Positions 33,701 to 43,509 of a DNA stretch of 43,509 nt are shown one piece after another; position 1 is the first letter of the stretch, and each line of letters begins with the position of its first letter. Source of the DNA: Desulfosarcina sp. (GTDB lineage Bacteria > Desulfobacterota > Desulfobacteria > Desulfobacterales > Desulfosarcinaceae); NCBI GenBank assembly GCA_014237405.1, contig JABZFO010000141.1:1-43509 (forward strand). Reading direction: 5' to 3'. The position numbers were made by a program, and so were the translations under genes. Under the pieces are notes generated by a model. It did not search any database. It was not told the DNA's origin and worked only from the letters and a program-made list of their open reading frames with translations.

Positions 33701-34486
33701 TTGAAAATTCTCACAACCATAAAAAAAGTAGTTGATGTGGAATTGAACATCCACGTGGAAAACGGGGCCATTGTTGAAGAAGGGCTACAGTATGTCCTGA
33801 ATGCCTGGGACGAAAATGCGGTGGAAGCCTCTGTCCAATTTAAGGAAAATAACAACGCGGAAACAACTTTGGTTAGTATCGGCGGTGGTGAAGACAATAC
33901 CAAAATCATCCGTAGAGGCTTCGCCATGGGTATTGAAAACGGGATTCAAATCGATGATCCGGTACTGGCCGAAGCGGATTCGTCTGTTACCGCCAAAGTT
34001 TTACAAAAGGTTTTTGAGGCGGGAAACTATGATCTCGTTATCAGTGGCAAACAAGCCCAAGATACGGATAGTGGCCAAACCGGAATCATATTGGCTGAGT
34101 ACTTAGGATTACCTTGTGTCAGTAATGTGATCGCCATCGAAGTAATTGACGACCAGCACATTCAAGTATCCCGATTGGGTGATGCCGGAACCGAAATTGT
34201 TGAACTGGAACTGCCCGCCGTGGTCACGGTTAGTGATAGTATTAATGAACCTCGACTGCCCCAAATGCGCGGCCTCATGATGGCAAAGAAAAAGAAGATC
34301 GATGTAATGGATCTGGCGGCACTCGGTACTTCCCATGATGAAGTCGGAGGCGCCACGCCAACATCGGAAGTTGTAGAATTTATGAAATCGAAGACGCGCA
34401 AGGCCGGGCAAAAATATGAAGGCGATGCTGCCGAAATTACCGCCCAGGTCGTCGATCTTTTGGCCAATGAAGCAAAAGTGTTATAA
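33701..34486 (+). CDS. etfB: Electron transfer flavoprotein beta subunit
   Basis: A 261-aa EtfB that takes electrons from acyl-CoA dehydrogenases. It begins MKILTTIKKVVDVELNIHV and has DLVISGKQAQDTDSGQTGIILAEYLGLP (about 109-136), the usual AMP/FAD-proximal segment, and ELPAVVTVSDSINEPRLP (about 168-185). A TTG start lies behind GGAGG. It opens the lower-GC block and precedes etfA by 27 bp. In this context it should collect electrons from the beta-oxidation-like steps after ring reduction (e.g., glutaryl-CoA or related dehydrogenases, not seen here). An electron-bifurcating role is not shown. Confidence 0.94.
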   Translation: MKILTTIKKVVDVELNIHVENGAIVEEGLQYVLNAWDENAVEASVQFKENNNAETTLVSIGGGEDNTKIIRRGFAMGIENGIQIDDPVLAEADSSVTAKVLQKVFEAGNYDLVISGKQAQDTDSGQTGIILAEYLGLPCVSNVIAIEVIDDQHIQVSRLGDAGTEIVELELPAVVTVSDSINEPRLPQMRGLMMAKKKKIDVMDLAALGTSHDEVGGATPTSEVVEFMKSKTRKAGQKYEGDAAEITAQVVDLLANEAKVL

Positions 34487-34513: not shown

Positions 34514-35473
34514 ATGGCTAAAGTACTCGTAATTGCAGACATCAAACAAGGTGTACTAAAAGGCAGCACAACCGAACTTTTGTCAAAAGCCAAAGCCATC
34601 GGCGCAGAAACCGCTGTGGTGGCCATTGGCAGTAACATAGAATCTTTAATTCCCGACTTGGTAAATGCCGGTTCCGATACGCAATATATCGCCGATGATT
34701 CGGGACTGGAGTTGTTTTCAGCCGGTCCATACGCATCCTGTGTCGTCGACGCAGCCAAACAATTTGGTGCCAATCTGATTTGGTTTGGGTTTTCCGAAAG
34801 CGGCAAAGCCGTCGCTCCGAGGGTTGCAGCGCAACTGGATGCCGCGTGCGCAACTGAAATTACCGATGTGATGCTGGAAGGAGATCAAGTCGAAGTAACA
34901 AGACCCGCCATTGCAAATAAAGTGATGCAACGGGTGAAAGTCAATACCGAACAACTGGTGGCAGTCGTCAGGGCAGGCGCGTTTGAGGCGACGGAAGGAA
35001 TCACAGGAACCGAAAACGTAGTCAAACTTTCTCCTCCGGCACCTGATTTAAAGGCCGTGATCAAGGAACTCCTATCGGATGCAAGCGGTGAAATCGATCT
35101 TGCCGATGCCGACATCGTCATCTCAGTGGGGCGGGGCGCCAAGGATCAAGCCGGTGTCGATCTAGTAAGAGAACTGGCCAACGATCTAGATGCGGGTTTT
35201 GGCTCTTCCCGCGCGATGGTGGATGGTGGTTTCATGGCACATAATAAGCAAGTCGGACAAACCGGTAAAATTGTCGCACCTTCCCTTTATATGGCAATCG
35301 GTATCTCCGGAGCCATTCAGCACCTTGCGGGGATGAGCGGCTCACAAGTGATTCTGGCGGTTAATAAAGATACCGAAGCACCCATCTTCAATGTGGCTGA
35401 CTATGGTATCGTCGGAGACCTCTTCGAGGTGGTTCCGGTTCTCCGCGAAGAGATTAAAAAAATTAGAGGTTAG
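34514..35473 (+). CDS. etfA: Electron transfer flavoprotein alpha subunit
   Basis: A 319-aa EtfA. The C-terminal FAD domain is well conserved: VISVGRGAKDQAG (about 197-209), FGSSRAMVDGGF, NKQVGQTGKIVAPSLYMAIGISGAIQHLAGM (about 244-275) and ADYGIVGDLFEVVPVL. Complete. It forms a heterodimer with the upstream etfB product. The next gene, 90 bp downstream, encodes a membrane FeS oxidoreductase that is the likely electron acceptor. Confidence 0.95.
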   Translation: MAKVLVIADIKQGVLKGSTTELLSKAKAIGAETAVVAIGSNIESLIPDLVNAGSDTQYIADDSGLELFSAGPYASCVVDAAKQFGANLIWFGFSESGKAVAPRVAAQLDAACATEITDVMLEGDQVEVTRPAIANKVMQRVKVNTEQLVAVVRAGAFEATEGITGTENVVKLSPPAPDLKAVIKELLSDASGEIDLADADIVISVGRGAKDQAGVDLVRELANDLDAGFGSSRAMVDGGFMAHNKQVGQTGKIVAPSLYMAIGISGAIQHLAGMSGSQVILAVNKDTEAPIFNVADYGIVGDLFEVVPVLREEIKKIRG

Positions 35474-35563: not shown

Positions 35564-37672
35564 GTGAATCCTTTATTGATGTCCCTTCTACTCATTGCCG
35601 GTCTGGCAATTTTTGGCCGTACGATGGTTCGCAAAATTCAATTGTTAAAGGCACTCGAACCCACCGATAGAGCCGATCATCTGAAGGAACGATTGATGAA
35701 TATGGTAATTCTGGCCATCGGCCAGAAACGCCTGGTCGGAAGAGCAAAAGAGAGAGGTTCGGGTGTTATGCATGCGTTTATTTTTTGGGGATTCTGTGTT
35801 TTATTGATTCGCAGCCTGACCTTATATGGAGAGGGATTTGTCGAAGGATATCACCTGCCGTTTTTGGGTGGTGATTATTTGGTCGGATATCTTTATATCG
35901 CCGTAAAAGATATCATGGAAGGGATCGTCTTATTGATGATCCTCTACGCAATTTTTCGTCGCGCCGTTCTAAAGCCAAAACGAATGCACAATACCTACGA
36001 AGCCTATCTGGTCTTGGCGATGATCGGGATCTTGATGGTGTCTGATCTGTTGTACGACGGCGCACGGTACAACTTAATTCAACTATATAACAACCCGGGA
36101 GATATCCACTACTTCAATAATCTGCAATATGGTTCCGAATTCCTTTGGACGCCGATATCGGTGGGAGCGGCCACCCTGGTTTCGGGATTGAGCGCCGAAG
36201 CCAACACCCACATCTTGGTCATTATGTTTTGGCTTCACATCTGTACGCAGCTGACATTTTTGAATATTCTTCCTACGGGCAAGCATTTTCATGTGATCAC
36301 CGCACTTCCAAACGTTTTTCTGAAAAGCCTGGGCTATCCTCATGAAAAACCGAAACTGCTGGATTTGGAAGACGAAGCCGCCTGGGAGGAAGAATCCTTA
36401 GGGATCAATCATATCCATCAACTCAATTGGAAACAGGGGCTGGACCTTTACACCTGCACCGAATGTGGACGATGCAAAGAGGTCTGCCCGACATATACCA
36501 CCGACAAACCGTTAAATTTGCATGAATTCAATGACAAACTGAAGCTTGAACTATTGGAAAATGCCGATAAAATCATCAAAAAAGCCAAGTTATCATCCAC
36601 AATCAAGCAAAGCGAAGATTCCGAACAAATTGAAAAGATCAAGGAAGAGATCACCGAGCTCAACAGCAAAAGACAATTAATTGGTGAGGTAATCGCAGAA
36701 GACACACTTTGGGCATGTACAACTTGCCGTGCCTGCGAAGAAGTTTGCCCGGTGACCATTGAACATGTGCCCAGAATTATTGCCATGAGACAGGGGCAAA
36801 CCTTGATGGCGGAGTCTTACCCCAAGGAACTGAACACGGCCCTGAAAGGGCTTGAACGGAACGGCAACCCGTGGGGAATCGGTTATGATAAACGCGCCGA
36901 TTGGGCCAAAGGGTTGGACGTCAAAATGATGGCGGACGACTCGGATGTCGATTATCTCCTTTGGGTTGGATGTGCCGGTTCATTCGATGATCGATCCAAA
37001 AAAGTATCGACAAGCCTGGTTAGAATTCTGCAAAAAGCAGGTGTCAGCTTCGCTATTTTGGGTGTGGAGGAAAAATGTACCGGCGACTTTGCCAGACGTG
37101 TTGGCAATGAAATGATGTTTCAAATGATGGCCGAGGAAAACATTGCAACGCTGAACAACTATAAAGTGAAAAAAATAATCACAGCCTGCCCGCATTGTCT
37201 CAATTCCCTGAAACATGACTATCCCCAAATGGGAGGAAATTACGATGTGATCCATCATGCCGAGTTCATCGATCAACTCGTCAAAGAAGGAAAAATCAAA
37301 CTGAAACAATCGCTGGAAGGCGCTCTGACATATCATGATCCCTGTTACCTGGGACGATATAATAACATTTACGATCAACCAAGATCTATCCTGCGATCCG
37401 TTTCTAAGGGTGGATTCAAGGAACTCGAACGGCACGGTCGGGAAAGCTTTTGTTGCGGTGCCGGTGGGGGAAGAATGTGGATGGAAGAGACCATCGGTAA
37501 AAGAATCTACCTGGAGCGTTCGGAAGAAATCGTCGGTCGGCAAGTCTCGACCGTAGCGGTTGGTTGCCCCTTCTGCCTGACGATGATCGAAGACGGGATG
37601 AAAGAGATAGGGAAGGAAGAGGCGATCAAGACAATGGATATCGCTGAGCTTGTGGGAAAAAATATGGAGTAA
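35564..37672 (+). CDS. Membrane-bound Etf:menaquinone oxidoreductase (EMO-like, HdrD/GlpC-type)
   Basis: A 702-aa integral membrane iron-sulfur protein. About six membrane segments with histidines suitable for heme b fill residues 1-250 (HAFIFWGFCVLLIRS, MFWLHICTQL). Two ferredoxin clusters follow: CTECGRCKEVC (298-308) and CTTCRACEEVC. Two CCG domains complete it: GCAGSF/EEKCTGD/CPHC and CYLGRYN/FCCGAGGGRMW/CPFC. This architecture next to etfBA is that of EMO, proposed to oxidise reduced EtfAB and reduce menaquinone in deltaproteobacteria. The assignment is by architecture and context. Confidence 0.87.
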   Translation: MNPLLMSLLLIAGLAIFGRTMVRKIQLLKALEPTDRADHLKERLMNMVILAIGQKRLVGRAKERGSGVMHAFIFWGFCVLLIRSLTLYGEGFVEGYHLPFLGGDYLVGYLYIAVKDIMEGIVLLMILYAIFRRAVLKPKRMHNTYEAYLVLAMIGILMVSDLLYDGARYNLIQLYNNPGDIHYFNNLQYGSEFLWTPISVGAATLVSGLSAEANTHILVIMFWLHICTQLTFLNILPTGKHFHVITALPNVFLKSLGYPHEKPKLLDLEDEAAWEEESLGINHIHQLNWKQGLDLYTCTECGRCKEVCPTYTTDKPLNLHEFNDKLKLELLENADKIIKKAKLSSTIKQSEDSEQIEKIKEEITELNSKRQLIGEVIAEDTLWACTTCRACEEVCPVTIEHVPRIIAMRQGQTLMAESYPKELNTALKGLERNGNPWGIGYDKRADWAKGLDVKMMADDSDVDYLLWVGCAGSFDDRSKKVSTSLVRILQKAGVSFAILGVEEKCTGDFARRVGNEMMFQMMAEENIATLNNYKVKKIITACPHCLNSLKHDYPQMGGNYDVIHHAEFIDQLVKEGKIKLKQSLEGALTYHDPCYLGRYNNIYDQPRSILRSVSKGGFKELERHGRESFCCGAGGGRMWMEETIGKRIYLERSEEIVGRQVSTVAVGCPFCLTMIEDGMKEIGKEEAIKTMDIAELVGKNME

Positions 37673-37708: not shown

Positions 37709-39715
37709 ATGAGGTACGCAGAGACAGGGTTTAATTTAGAAGTTGATCTAACCCGAGGAAATATCGAGCGGGTCGCAACTGATCCAAGAGATACCGAACT
37801 TTATCTGGGGGGTCTAGGTACTAACGCCAAGATATTGTGGGATAGGGTTCCGCCTGAAGTTGAACCCTTTTCTCCTGATAATCTACTAATATTTGCCACT
37901 GGTCTTTTATGTGGCACACCTGCTACTGGTTGTAATCGTACCATTGTTTCTACCATTTCTCCTCAGACCCGGTTAATGGCATTTTCAATGATGGGCGGAT
38001 TTTGGGCACCTGAATTGAAATATGCCGGTTATGACAAAGTGATCCTTCGTGGCAAGTCCTCCGATCTGGTATATTTGTGGATAAACAATGACAAAGTAGA
38101 AATACGTGATGCCTCTCATTTGCAGGGTAAAGGCGCCATTGAAACTGCAGAACTTATTCGGCACGAGTTGGAGGAGCCGAAAGCCCAGGTTGCTGCTATT
38201 GGCCTGGCCGGTGAAAACAGGGTCTATTATGCTTCCATCGAGCAGGGCAGGTCCAGTGCCAGCCGCGGCGGAATAGGCGCCGTTATGGGAGATAAAGGGG
38301 TAAAGGCGATAGTTGTTCGCGGAACAAAGGACATCAATGTTGCCCAACCAGCTGAATATTTAGAGCTTTGCAACGAAGTGCTGGAATATATAAAATTCCG
38401 GGAGAAAAATCCGATTCCGGGGGTAATACCCATTTTAGCCGTACTTGGGTCACCGCAGGAGATGGCAATCCACAATGAGCAGTGGCACACCGAAAATTTC
38501 ATGTGGGGAAATTCCCGCACCCGCAGAAAAGGGTTTTGGACCGAGGAAATTGCAGAGGCGTGGAAGGAGACTTTAGAAAGTTCGCGGACGCGGTTAATAA
38601 GTTGCTATAACTGTCCGCTGAAATGCGGGGCAACAATTTCCATGCCGGGACTTCCAACATACATGATGAAATGTTTCTCGAAACTGACGTATACCATGGC
38701 GGCATTTTCAGATCTGGATTTTGGTTTCAGAATCGCCCAACGTGCTACAGAGTATGGAGTGGACGGATACTCAACACCGCAAGTTATGGCCTTTGCCCTT
38801 GAACTTTACGAAAACGGCATTTTAACAGACGATGATTTTCCGGGAATGCCGTCCGATAGCGAGGGGAGATTTTTCTGGCTACTTGACAGAATTGTTCGGC
38901 GGGAAGGGATAGGAGATGTTTTGGCCAATGGTACCTATTGGGCGGCCAAAGAGATTGGTAACGGCGCAGATGAATATGCGCATAATAATATTAAGAAACA
39001 GGAGCAGCTTCCGCTCAAGCTGTCAATGCTGAATCCCATTTATTTTCTTATGTACTGTACCGGCGAGAAGATAAACATTACCCAGATTGAAGGGCAGTTC
39101 CCCCAGGCGCCTTTTCCTAAAAGAGAGCATAGAGAAAAATTTGTAAAGGACTGGTTCCAGGTTCCTGATGAAAAGTTTAAGCGATATTTTATGGACTGGG
39201 AACTTCGCGGAGAAAACTCAAATCCCTATTACCCAACTGTTGAAATGACTTGTGATATTGTGGACTGGCAAGAGATGATGCACTACATTGATGACGCCCT
39301 CGGGATGTGCGCCGGTTTGTCATCATTCCACCTGAAGCCTCCGTATCATATACACAATTTCCCGAAATTTATCTCATCAGGGGCCGGGTTCGATATGGAT
39401 GAAGCCAAACTAACGCAAGCAGCCAAGAGGTACCGAACTTTGGTTAGAGCCATTAATATAAGAAGAGGCATGAGGAGAAAAGATGAGAAGCCGCCAGAGG
39501 ACCATTGGAAGAAAAGATTTCCCGAGCTTGAAGCTGAGCTCTTAGATGCGTATTACAAATTTAAGGGTTGGAATAATCAGGGTATTCCTACTAAAGCGTC
39601 CTTACATGAATTGGATATGGATTACGTGAGCGAAGACTTTCTAGAGAGGGGGATCTTGACGGATAGTGAAGATGCTTCTGCAAAAGAGGCTTCGGCGGAA
39701 AATGAAAAAAAATAG
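37709..39715 (+). CDS. bamB: Class II benzoyl-CoA reductase, tungsten subunit BamB
   Basis: A 668-aa aldehyde:ferredoxin oxidoreductase-family protein holding bis-pterin tungsten; in BamBC it reduces benzoyl-CoA to cyclohexa-1,5-diene-1-carboxyl-CoA without ATP. The sequence is close to Geobacter BamB as I recall it (MRYAETGFNLEVDLTRGNIE, GLGTNAKILWDRVPPEV). E251, H255 and H260 (EMAIHNEQWH) and C322 fall exactly at the numbered zinc ligands reported for BamB. ISCYNCPLKCG (C299, C302, C306) binds the FeS cluster, with a late Cys in MCAGLSS. AAGGGG precedes the ATG. First gene of bamBCDE, 36 bp after the EMO gene. Confidence 0.93.
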   Translation: MRYAETGFNLEVDLTRGNIERVATDPRDTELYLGGLGTNAKILWDRVPPEVEPFSPDNLLIFATGLLCGTPATGCNRTIVSTISPQTRLMAFSMMGGFWAPELKYAGYDKVILRGKSSDLVYLWINNDKVEIRDASHLQGKGAIETAELIRHELEEPKAQVAAIGLAGENRVYYASIEQGRSSASRGGIGAVMGDKGVKAIVVRGTKDINVAQPAEYLELCNEVLEYIKFREKNPIPGVIPILAVLGSPQEMAIHNEQWHTENFMWGNSRTRRKGFWTEEIAEAWKETLESSRTRLISCYNCPLKCGATISMPGLPTYMMKCFSKLTYTMAAFSDLDFGFRIAQRATEYGVDGYSTPQVMAFALELYENGILTDDDFPGMPSDSEGRFFWLLDRIVRREGIGDVLANGTYWAAKEIGNGADEYAHNNIKKQEQLPLKLSMLNPIYFLMYCTGEKINITQIEGQFPQAPFPKREHREKFVKDWFQVPDEKFKRYFMDWELRGENSNPYYPTVEMTCDIVDWQEMMHYIDDALGMCAGLSSFHLKPPYHIHNFPKFISSGAGFDMDEAKLTQAAKRYRTLVRAINIRRGMRRKDEKPPEDHWKKRFPELEAELLDAYYKFKGWNNQGIPTKASLHELDMDYVSEDFLERGILTDSEDASAKEASAENEKK

Positions 39716-39732: not shown

Positions 39733-40191
39733 TTGACTGGTAATAAAACTGATAAAAAAAAGAAAATAATTAAAACAATAAAAATTGATGTTGATAAATG
39801 CAATGGTTGCCGGGCATGTGAGGTAATTTGCTCCGCCTTTCACGCTACGCCAAAATATAGCAGCAATAATCCGGCGAGGTCTCGTATTCGGGTGATTCTT
39901 GATCCACTAAGAGATGTATATGTTCCTGTATACGCGGGTGAGTATACTGTAGCCGAATGTGCCGGCAGAGACAAATACACGATTGGCGGAAAGGAATACG
40001 ATGAGTGTGCCTTCTGCAGGGCTTCCTGCCCATCCAGAGACATTTTCAAAGAACCCGATTCCGGTCTCCCTTTAAAATGCGATATGTGTGAAAGCGATCC
40101 GCCATTAGAAGAACCCATGTGTGTTCAGTGGTGCTTAGCTGGCCTGGAGAAGTTAATGGATACCGTTGCCCGAATGTCAGAGAAGGGCTAA
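39733..40191 (+). CDS. bamC: Benzoyl-CoA reductase ferredoxin subunit BamC
   Basis: A 152-aa polyferredoxin that carries electrons to BamB. Clusters: CNGCRACEVIC (23-33), CAFCRASC (about 96-103) with C in ECAGRD, and CDMCESDPP...MCVQWC in the C-terminal part, in the arrangement of DMSO-reductase-type electron-transfer subunits with three [4Fe-4S] clusters. TTG start behind GGAGGG, 17 bp after bamB. The Lys-rich N-terminus is not a signal peptide. Confidence 0.9.
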   Translation: MTGNKTDKKKKIIKTIKIDVDKCNGCRACEVICSAFHATPKYSSNNPARSRIRVILDPLRDVYVPVYAGEYTVAECAGRDKYTIGGKEYDECAFCRASCPSRDIFKEPDSGLPLKCDMCESDPPLEEPMCVQWCLAGLEKLMDTVARMSEKG

Positions 40192-40218: not shown

Positions 40219-41370
40219 GTGGAGACAGTAGCCCCCTTCATAGAAGTAATAGATGAGATAAAAGAGGCCGGTGGAGAAGTATTTAATTTATGCTTTCAGT
40301 GCGGATTGTGCGATGCTGTTTGTCCGTGGAACAAGGTTCGACCCTTTAGCATGCGCAAAATAATCCGGGAAGCTACATTCGGTTTGACTGAGATAGACGG
40401 TGAAGATATATGGCGTTGTACGACCTGCGGAAAATGTACTCAGCAGTGTCCCAGGGGAGTAAAACAGATAGAAATTGGGGTATCCTTACGCAGGGTTGCT
40501 TCGGAATATGAGGTTTTTCCTGCTTCTGTCCGTTCTGCTCGTACCGCAAGAGCAAGTCTGATTTCTGAAGGCAACCCCTTGCAGGGAGAACGAAAAAAGC
40601 GGGCTGACTGGGCAAAAGATCTGTCTGTGAAAACGTACACCGAGGGGATGGAAGCGTTGTATTTTGTCGGTTGCTATCTTAGTTATGACCCAAGAATGAA
40701 AAAGGTAGCGACTGCAACTGCCAATATCCTGAACAAAGCAGGGGTAAAATTTGGGATCCTGGGTGATAAAGAAAGCTGCTGCGGAGAAAGCATCCGCAAG
40801 ACAGGCAGTGAAGAAGTATTCAAAAACCTGGCCAAGGAAAATATCAAAACGTTTATTGATAACGGGGTACGAAAAATCATTGTATCTTCTCCTCATTGTT
40901 ACCACACCTTTAAAAACGAATATCCCGAATTTATGGTAAACTTTGAGGTCGTTTATATTTCCCAGTATATATTGGAACTCATCAACGAGGGAAGACTTGA
41001 ACTCACAGGTGAATTTGCAAAGAAAGTTACTTATCATGACCCATGTTATCTGGGGCGGCATAATGACATATATGATGAACCCCGCGAAGCTTTAAAGAAG
41101 ATACCTGGTTTGGAACTTGTTGAAATGACTGATTCGCGTAAAAATAGTCTCTGTTGCGGAGGGGGCGGGGGCAGGATTTGGATGGACACTCCAAAGGAAG
41201 ATAGATTCTCCGACCTTAGATTGGAACAAGCCAATGAGGTTGGAGCTCAAGTGCTGGTTACTTCCTGCCCATACTGCATTACCAATTTTGAGGAGAGCAG
41301 GCTAAACCTGGAGTATGAAGACATCCTGGAGATTAAGGACATCACGGAGATTGTCAATGATATGCTTTGA
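40219..41370 (+). CDS. bamD: HdrD/HdrB-like iron-sulfur subunit BamD
   Basis: A 383-aa soluble FeS protein. Two [4Fe-4S] sites, CFQCGLCDAVC and CTTCGKCTQQC, are followed by two CCG domains: FVGCYLSYDPR/ESCCGES/SPHCYHTF and CYLGRHNDIYDE/LCCGGGGGRIWMD/CPYC. In heterodisulfide reductases such domains bind the noncubane cluster. Here it should work with BamE in passing electrons to BamBC. It shares extensive architecture with the C-terminal half of the EMO protein upstream, suggesting an ancestral duplication. GTG start behind AGAGGA. Confidence 0.88.
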   Translation: METVAPFIEVIDEIKEAGGEVFNLCFQCGLCDAVCPWNKVRPFSMRKIIREATFGLTEIDGEDIWRCTTCGKCTQQCPRGVKQIEIGVSLRRVASEYEVFPASVRSARTARASLISEGNPLQGERKKRADWAKDLSVKTYTEGMEALYFVGCYLSYDPRMKKVATATANILNKAGVKFGILGDKESCCGESIRKTGSEEVFKNLAKENIKTFIDNGVRKIIVSSPHCYHTFKNEYPEFMVNFEVVYISQYILELINEGRLELTGEFAKKVTYHDPCYLGRHNDIYDEPREALKKIPGLELVEMTDSRKNSLCCGGGGGRIWMDTPKEDRFSDLRLEQANEVGAQVLVTSCPYCITNFEESRLNLEYEDILEIKDITEIVNDML

Positions 41371-41393: not shown

Positions 41394-41446
41394 GGTTTAA
41401 ATCCGAATACTACAGACCCCAAAAAAATATGATGAGGAGATAGAAA

Positions 41447-43509
41447 GTGGGAAACGAAGTATTGCCAATAGAAAAAATTCAACAATATTCTAAAAGTTTT
41501 GGAGATAGTAATTTTGGAGACATATTGGTTGTTGGTGGAGGGGTCAGCGGTATTCAAGCCTCTCTTGACCTTGCCACCGCTGGTTTTAAGGTTTACCTGG
41601 TTGAGAAAACGCCGAGTATTGGCGGGCATATGGCCCAGCTTGACAAGACCTTTCCTACCAATGACTGCTCCATGTGAATTCTTTCACCCAAACTGGTCGA
41701 GGTCGGCCGGCATCCAAATATAGAGGTTCTGACACTTACTGAAGTTGACGGCGTAGAAGGGGAAGCAGGAAACTTTAAGGCAACCCTGATCAAGAAGCCC
41801 AGATACATTATAGAAGAAAAATGCACCGGTTGCACGACCTGTGTAGAATACTGTCCGGTTCAATACCCTGATCAATTTAATCAGGAAATATCGACGAATA
41901 AAGCCGTCCATGTATATTTCTCTCAAGCAATTCCACTTATCTCATATATTGATGAAAGCTGTCTTTTCCTTAAAGAGCAAAAATGTGATATTTGCAGAGG
42001 AGTATGTAAGAATAACGCCATAGATTTCAACCAAACGGAGGAGAAGGTAGAAGTAAATGTAGGGGCGATAATTCTGTCCTACGGCATTGAGCCATTTGAT
42101 CCTAAGGTGAAAGATGAATATTGCTACGGAAAGATGCAGAACGTGGTAACCAGTATGGACTATGAAAGGCTATTATCCTCCACCGGGCCATACGAAGGAG
42201 AGGTACTGCGTGCTTCCGACAAGAAGCATCCCCATAAAATAGCCTGGATTCAATGCGTCGGTTCCAGACGGGTAACCGAAGGAGAGAACAGCTATTGTTC
42301 AGGCGTATGCTGCACCTATACCCAGAAACAGGTGATTTTGACAAAAGATCATGAAGCAGAAGCCGAATGTACCATATTCCATAACGATGTTCGTTCCTTT
42401 GGCAAGGATTTTGAACGATACTACCAGAGAGCAGAACAACTTCCAGGGGTTGAATTCATTAGAAGCTACGCATCAATAGCAAGAGAGATCCCGGAAAGCA
42501 AAAATGTAGTCGTAAGATACGCGACTTTCGACGATGGCGTAAAAGAAAAAGAATTCGATATGGTGGTATTATCCGTTGGATTGAATCCTCCTGCGGATCA
42601 TGAGGGGTTGGCAGATAAGTTCGGAATCGAGCTTAATTCACACGGATTCTGTAAAGCAAGTAATGAAAATCCAATAGAGACCACCAGGCCTGGAATCTTT
42701 GTAGCTGGAGCCTTCCAAGGTCCTACAGATATCCCCGAGTCGGTTTTTACCGCCAGCGGGGCCGGCGCTCAATGTGGCGAATTCCTTGATTACAGACGAG
42801 GGAAGCTGGCCAAAGAAAGGATATACCCCCCGGAAAGGGATGTCTCCACAGAAGAGCCAAGGATAGGCGTTTTTGTGTGTCATTGTGGGGCTAATATCGG
42901 AAGGGTGGTAGATGTTCCTTCCACAGTTGAATATGTCTTAACCTTACCCAATGTTGTCTATGCCCAGGAACAGCTATTTTCATGTGCTACTAATTCTGCC
43001 CAGGAAATAACAGACCTGGCAACGGAAAAAGGGCTCAATCGAGTGGTTATCGCGGCCTGTTCCCCCAGGACCCTTGAACCGTTATTCCGGGACACCCTTC
43101 GGGAGGCGGGACTTAATCAATATTACTGTGAGATGGCAAATATTAGGGAACATTGCTCCTGGGTCCATTCTAAGGAAAAGGAAGAGGCCACTGAAAAGGC
43201 AAAGGATATCATCCGGATGTCGGTGGCACGAGCTCGCCATTTGGAGCCATTACAGGAATTTGATCTGCCGGTAAACAAGGCGGCGTTGGTGGTTGGTGGA
43301 GGTATAGCCGGCATGACTTGTGCGCTCTCCATAGCTAACCAGGGACATGAGGTACAACTGGTGGAAAAGGATAAAGACTTAGGAGGAATGGCGCGGCGAC
43401 TTCCCACCACCCTGGAAGGAATGGATGTTCAAGCATATCTGAATGATGTGATACGCGAGGTTTATAATAACCCCTTGATACATGTATCCCATGAAGCCAC
43501 CATCACAGA
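41447..43509 (+). CDS. bamE: HdrA-like selenoprotein BamE (internal UGA = Sec77), partial at window end
   Basis: An FAD and FeS electron-bifurcation protein of the HdrA type. FAD motif VVGGGVSG at 28-35. At residue 77 (TGA, 41675-41677) the frame [23 protein letters not shown] continues unbroken to the window edge; HdrA relatives carry Cys at this site. After it come [11 protein letters not shown] (about 120-130), [36 protein letters not shown] and a second FAD motif VVGGGIAG. No other stop occurs in the remaining 611 codons. A SECIS-like hairpin follows the TGA. GTG start behind GAGGAGA. An annotation that stops at the TGA would produce a false 76-aa protein. The C-terminus lies outside the window. 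Confidence 0.92.
41693..41710 (+). promoter_or_regulatory. SECIS-like element in bamE
   Basis: CTGGTC (41693-41698) pairs with GGCCGG (41705-41710), including two G-U pairs, around the loop GAGGUC, which contains the AGGUC core seen in the E. coli fdhF SECIS loop. The loop begins 22 nt after the UGA, within the usual bacterial range. It would recruit SelB-Sec-tRNA. Confidence 0.75.

Follow-up and report, generated by a model that had tools for sequence, protein, structure and literature searches.

The window analysed here, a stretch of 43,509 nt of Desulfosarcina sp. DNA, ends in a run of plus-strand genes (Table 1), in which the order bamBCDE is preceded by etfB-like and etfA-like genes and a gene for an Fe-S oxidoreductase. 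Compared with solved structures, the product of bamB matched the benzoyl-CoA reductase subunit BamB (4z3w) with 1260 bits; the next match, an aldehyde oxidoreductase, reached 209 bits. This match, together with the presence of bamBCD upstream, identifies the interrupted gene at the end of the window as the bamE gene for a benzoyl-CoA reductase of class II, the ATP-independent tungsten enzymes, and thus confirms the type of cluster to which the first-pass annotation of this DNA had assigned it. Searching the whole window with Rfam at gathering thresholds returned nothing but one tRNA.

The contig belongs to a draft genome of 201 contigs (92% complete, 4.8% contamination). In 600-nt segments, GC content drops at about 33.2 kb, just 5′ of the etf-bam genes, from 0.53-0.60 (30-33.3 kb) to 0.38-0.53; it is 0.38 in the segment that starts at 33.3 kb and 0.41-0.53 beyond 33.6 kb. 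The host genome may have acquired the bam cluster. We rejected the idea that this low-GC end is misbinned DNA: the dnaX, tol and ruvB genes of the same contig sit in blocks of GC 0.54-0.57, and nothing obvious marks the contig as wrongly binned.

Table 1. Features of the bam locus (window coordinates).
Feature	Position	Strand	Basis
etfB-like (bamO-like)	33701..34486	+	Pfam ETF
etfA-like (bamP-like)	34514..35473	+	Pfam ETF_alpha
Fe-S oxidoreductase (CCG, Fer4), possible ETF partner	35564..37672	+	Pfam; NCBIfam below equivalog cut-offs
bamB, tungsten active-site subunit	37709..39715	+	4z3w, E 0, 1260 bits over residues 1-651
bamC, Fe-S protein	39733..40191	+	Weak sub-cut-off Pfam Fer4; between bamB and bamD
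bamD, HdrC/HdrB-like, two CCG stretches	40219..41370	+	Pfam CCG, Fer4; position
Probable ribosome binding site AGGAG	41435..41439	+	Sequence, 7 nt 5′ of GTG
bamE, predicted selenoprotein gene, HdrA-like electron-transfer subunit of class II benzoyl-CoA reductase	41447..43509	+	3′ part missing at contig end
TGA codon 77, predicted selenocysteine, CxxU motif DCSMU	41675..41677	+	Aligned to Cys of HdrA 8rvu; comparative rows; sel genes
Predicted SECIS hairpin, stem CUGGUC/GGCCGG, loop GAGGUC (alternatively 7 pairs, loop AGGU)	41693..41710	+	Synonymous-site invariance in TGA loci only; helix conservation

The bamE frame starts at a GTG and, apart from a single TGA in frame with it, stays open through 687 visible codons until window and contig (C75) end together; the rest of BamE lies beyond this point. 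In an alignment with the methanogen HdrA 8rvu, this TGA is matched to the second Cys of DCSMC and occupies the second position of a CxxC motif. Thus, both observations from which the first-pass annotation had started, one TGA in an otherwise open frame and its location at a site where HdrA relatives carry Cys, hold, as does the assignment to an HdrA-like family, given that the read-through product matches both 8rvu and the HdrA2 profile NF040770. The profile scores (708 bits against a cut-off of 1100 for NF040770, and 527 against 1400 for NF041778) are those of an incomplete protein and fall below the curated HdrA cut-offs, and we therefore call BamE HdrA-like and do not file it as HdrA. A second Rossmann motif lies at residues 615-651, with the downstream remainder past the contig end; complete BamE frames of relatives have about 1,033-1,084 residues.

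If the TGA were a true stop, the part downstream of it would be made as a separate protein from an internal start, and an internal GTG frame does exist at 42107 under the standard code. However, the TGA lies within the flavin domain, whose GGGVSG dinucleotide motif is encoded 5′ and whose remainder is encoded 3′ of it, and residues 26-443 align with HdrA 8rvu across this domain in one piece. A plain stop would, moreover, have no need of the conserved hairpin described below, and we regard termination at this codon as very unlikely. The sequence 3′ of the TGA is also under purifying selection. Over the 100 codons past it, each of six comparisons gave more synonymous changes (23 to 40) than replacements (14 to 20), these replacements being commoner (14-20 per 100 codons) than those before the TGA (1-5 per 50).

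We searched 60 genomes (the host's own and others of its genus, family and order) with a 155-residue piece of the protein, taking as BamE-like all rows with E below 1e-75. Among the matches listed, 34 rows were BamE-like, and 26 of them, from 25 genomes with the host included, had one TGA; in the 24 other genomes the TGA stood at the identical column in 25 of 25 listed rows. This recurrence bears on whether a cysteine-type bamE in the host was disabled by mutation or misread during sequencing or assembly, as the draft state of the genome and the position of the gene at a contig end might suggest. The same column in 25 other rows from 24 other genomes, the purifying selection on the downstream sequence and, among the matches listed, the near confinement of the full helix (see below) to TGA loci make such an accident extremely improbable. 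The remaining 8 of the 34 listed rows had no TGA and came from four genomes, each of which also has a TGA copy. Sec and Cys BamE genes were seen together in G007 (Desulfosarcina cetonica; L071, L082, L088-L090), G001, G004 and G024, where they could represent isoforms that do and do not depend on selenium, or could differ in substrate. A 6.6-kb contig binned as Bathyarchaeota (L128) also carries a TGA bamE with a bacterial-type hairpin inside the gene, and is probably misbinned bacterial DNA.

Bacterial SECIS elements are hairpins located shortly downstream within the coding region, with a G early in the loop. The hairpin with loop GAGGUC pointed out in the first-pass annotation is present inside the coding region of bamE, its stem beginning 15 nt past the TGA, and gains comparative support as a conserved element. 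When the 61 nt from the TGA were folded alone, their stability equalled that of shuffles (z 0.04), and the case for the hairpin thus rests on comparison between loci. We read the site in 150 loci, of which 70 came from the genome searches and 80 were named loci from a peptide-pattern search, the latter biased because one of its two patterns includes the Cys and is blind to TGA genes. One locus without the site (L178) was dropped, giving 149 loci (78 TGA and 71 TGC/TGT), and removal of identical 66-mers left 75 TGA and 68 Cys-codon loci (all counts among the matches listed).

Among the matches listed, every distinct TGA locus that encodes the peptide PKLVEVGRH (57 of 57) uses the same 20 nt, CTGGTCGAGGTCGGCCGGCA, and the 11 Cys loci with this peptide use 11 different nucleotide sequences. 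All six stem pairs were found in 72 of 75 distinct TGA loci versus 4 of 68 distinct Cys loci, and within BamE in 54 of 54 versus 3 of 34; the mean energy of the 24 nt was -10.0 kcal/mol in the 75 TGA loci versus -2.7 kcal/mol in the 68 Cys loci (all among the matches listed). The three TGA loci without the six-pair helix (L092, L190 and L193) each fold another hairpin. Diverged or shifted hairpins were seen in these three and in L109-L111, all TGA HdrA genes. In TGA loci, the paired fraction was 0.98 in register and 0.02-0.53 with the 3′ arm slid by 1 to 3 nt; the Cys loci also pair more in register (0.62 versus 0.33-0.50 slid), indicating that the protein sequence itself accounts for part of the pairing.

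The host genome has a second HdrA gene (L222/L023; contig C23 at about 38.9 kb, minus strand), with a TGA at the same column and a near-identical hairpin. A pattern derived from these two known sites matched bamE and the C23 gene, and those two only, in a scan of the genome; the same pattern reversed gave zero matches in the genome, and viral contigs scanned for a TGA with the exact hairpin yielded none. Many of the TGA loci are closely related, and the Sec BamE rows could be a single clade (see below), so that the invariance of the 20 nt might be put down to codon bias or recent common descent and not to an RNA element. Nevertheless, the identical 20 nt recur in a second HdrA family, which is separated by Cys lineages, the codons flanking the hairpin (positions 1-4 and 13-21) vary within the same TGA loci, and the helix has undergone pair-preserving changes (C-G to A-U in two loci and U-G to U-A in six). 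We therefore consider bias or descent a very improbable source of the 20 nt; on this comparative evidence, the hairpin is a conserved RNA element of TGA loci.

The genome also holds the sel genes on whose presence the first-pass annotation had made its reading depend. We found selA (contig C165, 528 bits), selB (C93, 367 bits), selD (C8, 375 bits; with one TGA of its own) and selC, the tRNA-Sec (C168, 75.4 bits, anticodon TCA), all over curated cut-offs. GC content is 0.55-0.60 around the selA, selB and selD loci and 0.48 around tRNA-Sec. From the frame, the hairpin and this machinery we infer, with a probability of about 0.96, that UGA codon 77 of bamE is decoded as selenocysteine. With the SECIS hairpin downstream as the signal, SelB and tRNA-Sec would read the UGA, yielding one read-through BamE with Sec77 as the second member of a CxxU motif in the HdrA flavin domain; judged by its relatives, this protein would have about 1,040 residues.

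Work on W/Se class II benzoyl-CoA reductases exists, and a 2004 study by Peters et al. reportedly concerned selenocysteine proteins in the benzoate metabolism of Desulfococcus multivorans. A selenocysteine BamE is already published for this species, and the host gene adds another example. The available text of PMC5109826 gives BamE (dmul_C24500/10) of D. multivorans DSM 2059 among five UGA/SECIS genes, and places the bam cluster at 2.74 Mb, an hdrA with TGA at 0.32 Mb and one without at 3.25 Mb. In the genome sequence (G039) we found bamE with a TGA at 2.746 Mb; of two HdrA genes, the one at 0.32 Mb has a TGA and the one at 3.25 Mb lacks it. Since that text gives no residue number, the identity of the site rests on the genome sequence of D. 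multivorans: it is the same gene with the same TGA column and nearly the same hairpin, the fifth helix pair being U-A in D. multivorans (VDRH) and U-G in the host (VGRH). The two proteins, from different organisms, are 81% identical over residues 14-687, the host gene being incomplete.

Beyond BamE, selenocysteine HdrA proteins form a well-established family, which had been reported by 2006 from Deltaproteobacteria, Clostridia and methanogens (PMC1794560 and PMC13188914). The CxxU motif is common to this family (NF040770) and host BamE. BamE differs from the family in the length of its relatives noted above, in its tie to BamBCD and in the score, with the incomplete host protein reaching 708 of 1100 bits. 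The methanogen HdrA structures 8rvu and 5odc, whose flavin domain aligns to BamE residues 26-443 with DCSMC matching DCSMU, have Cys and not Sec, are shorter (659 and 654 residues) and have different partners.

In a BamE tree of 85 rows (four short rows dropped), the best topology required five Sec/Cys changes, of which the starred branches force two. A topology with Sec BamE as one clade was not rejected by the AU test (p 0.457), and for this reason we do not claim repeated gain of Sec in BamE. The two forms differ at a further position. At site+9, among the matches listed, an extra Cys was present in 34 of 34 distinct Cys-form BamE versus 0 of 54 Sec forms, of which 51 have Val and 3 have Ala there. 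The hairpin places a partial constraint on this position of BamE, but three Sec HdrA genes of another family (L109-L111) carry Cys at site+9, which indicates that an RNA signal does not forbid Cys.

Class II reductase clusters of the Geobacter type (L170 and L172, from MAGs named Geobacter) have the same order, bamBCDEF, as here, but combine a Cys BamE (CSMCIESPKFNEC) with a TGA in bamF, whereas the host has a TGA in both genes. Host bamF (L220) lies at the start of contig C170 (172-852), with its in-frame TGA in CHWUAYG, the CxxU motif of MvhD. Its product is 83% identical to BamF of L124 over residues 1-120, and the BamF relatives L124 and L172 match Pfam FlpD. The first 6 kb of C170 have a GC content of 0.47, close to the value for the window's bam end, and a stretch of bamE is lost in the gap between the two contigs; a bamG-like frame was seen by eye 3′ of bamF. 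BamF of D. multivorans (L221, minus strand, 6955) likewise has an in-frame TGA in CHWU, and is not named among the five selenocysteine genes in the available text of PMC5109826. MvhD-like genes with one TGA each were also seen on contigs that carry other HdrA genes (L218, C23:34220-34606; L219, C60:7031-7429).

We paired the BamE and BamF codons in 77 clusters, excluding duplicate loci (L163 and L168) and clusters without a reached or fetched BamF. Among the matches listed, 46 clusters had Sec in both proteins, 0 in BamE only, 15 in BamF only and 16 in neither (Fisher p 2e-8 for the association); an earlier, smaller count, also among the matches listed, gave 24, 0, 13 and 13, respectively. On the tree, the independent BamE/BamF pairs number two on starred branches and four on all branches, too few for a sign test at 0.05. 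Because the independent events are few, we treat the association as a pattern and not as a result; ancestry could explain it. As with BamE, the Cys and Sec forms of BamF differ next to the site: among the matches listed, Cys-form BamF has NWCC in 15 of 16 cases and NWCS in the remaining one, and in all 59 tabulated Sec forms Sec is followed by Ala, Gly or Val. The available text of PMC1794560, from Zhang and Gladyshev's group, lists an FrhD selenoprotein for G. metallireducens, which we infer to be BamF, and that of a 2026 paper links bamF of Geotalea daltonii to selenite via ligand prediction and expression (PMC13119186). A description of the BamE/BamF pairing was not found in the open-access literature searched.

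In methanogens, according to the available text of PMC6019823, the [2Fe-2S] cluster of MvhD donates electrons to the bifurcating HdrA flavin. As BamF corresponds to MvhD and BamE to HdrA, both selenocysteines probably lie on an electron route of this type. By analogy, they might sit on the route into the flavin and Fe-S centres of BamE and adjust its potential or rate, a proposal that we find plausible, if somewhat short of probable. A more specific arrangement, which we hold only as a speculative and rather unlikely option, would make them an ordered coupled pair on the donor (BamF) and acceptor (BamE) sides of one electron step, with Sec in BamE only where BamF has Sec, and with the accessory Cys (site+9 in BamE, site+1 in BamF) dropped in the Sec forms. 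If the ordered pair is real, selenium would replace a two-cysteine arrangement and set electron entry into the bifurcating flavin, and in genomes with both types one isoform would depend on selenium and the other would not.

The strict synonymous conservation of the hairpin provides a simple DNA signature for most such selenoprotein genes. Under standard annotation, bamE and bamF would come out as split or truncated genes, so that work on metagenomes can easily miss the dependence of anaerobic aromatic degradation on selenium. The BamE/BamF pairing and the extra cysteines offer a testable handle on the role of selenium in a complex that presumably works by flavin-based bifurcation.
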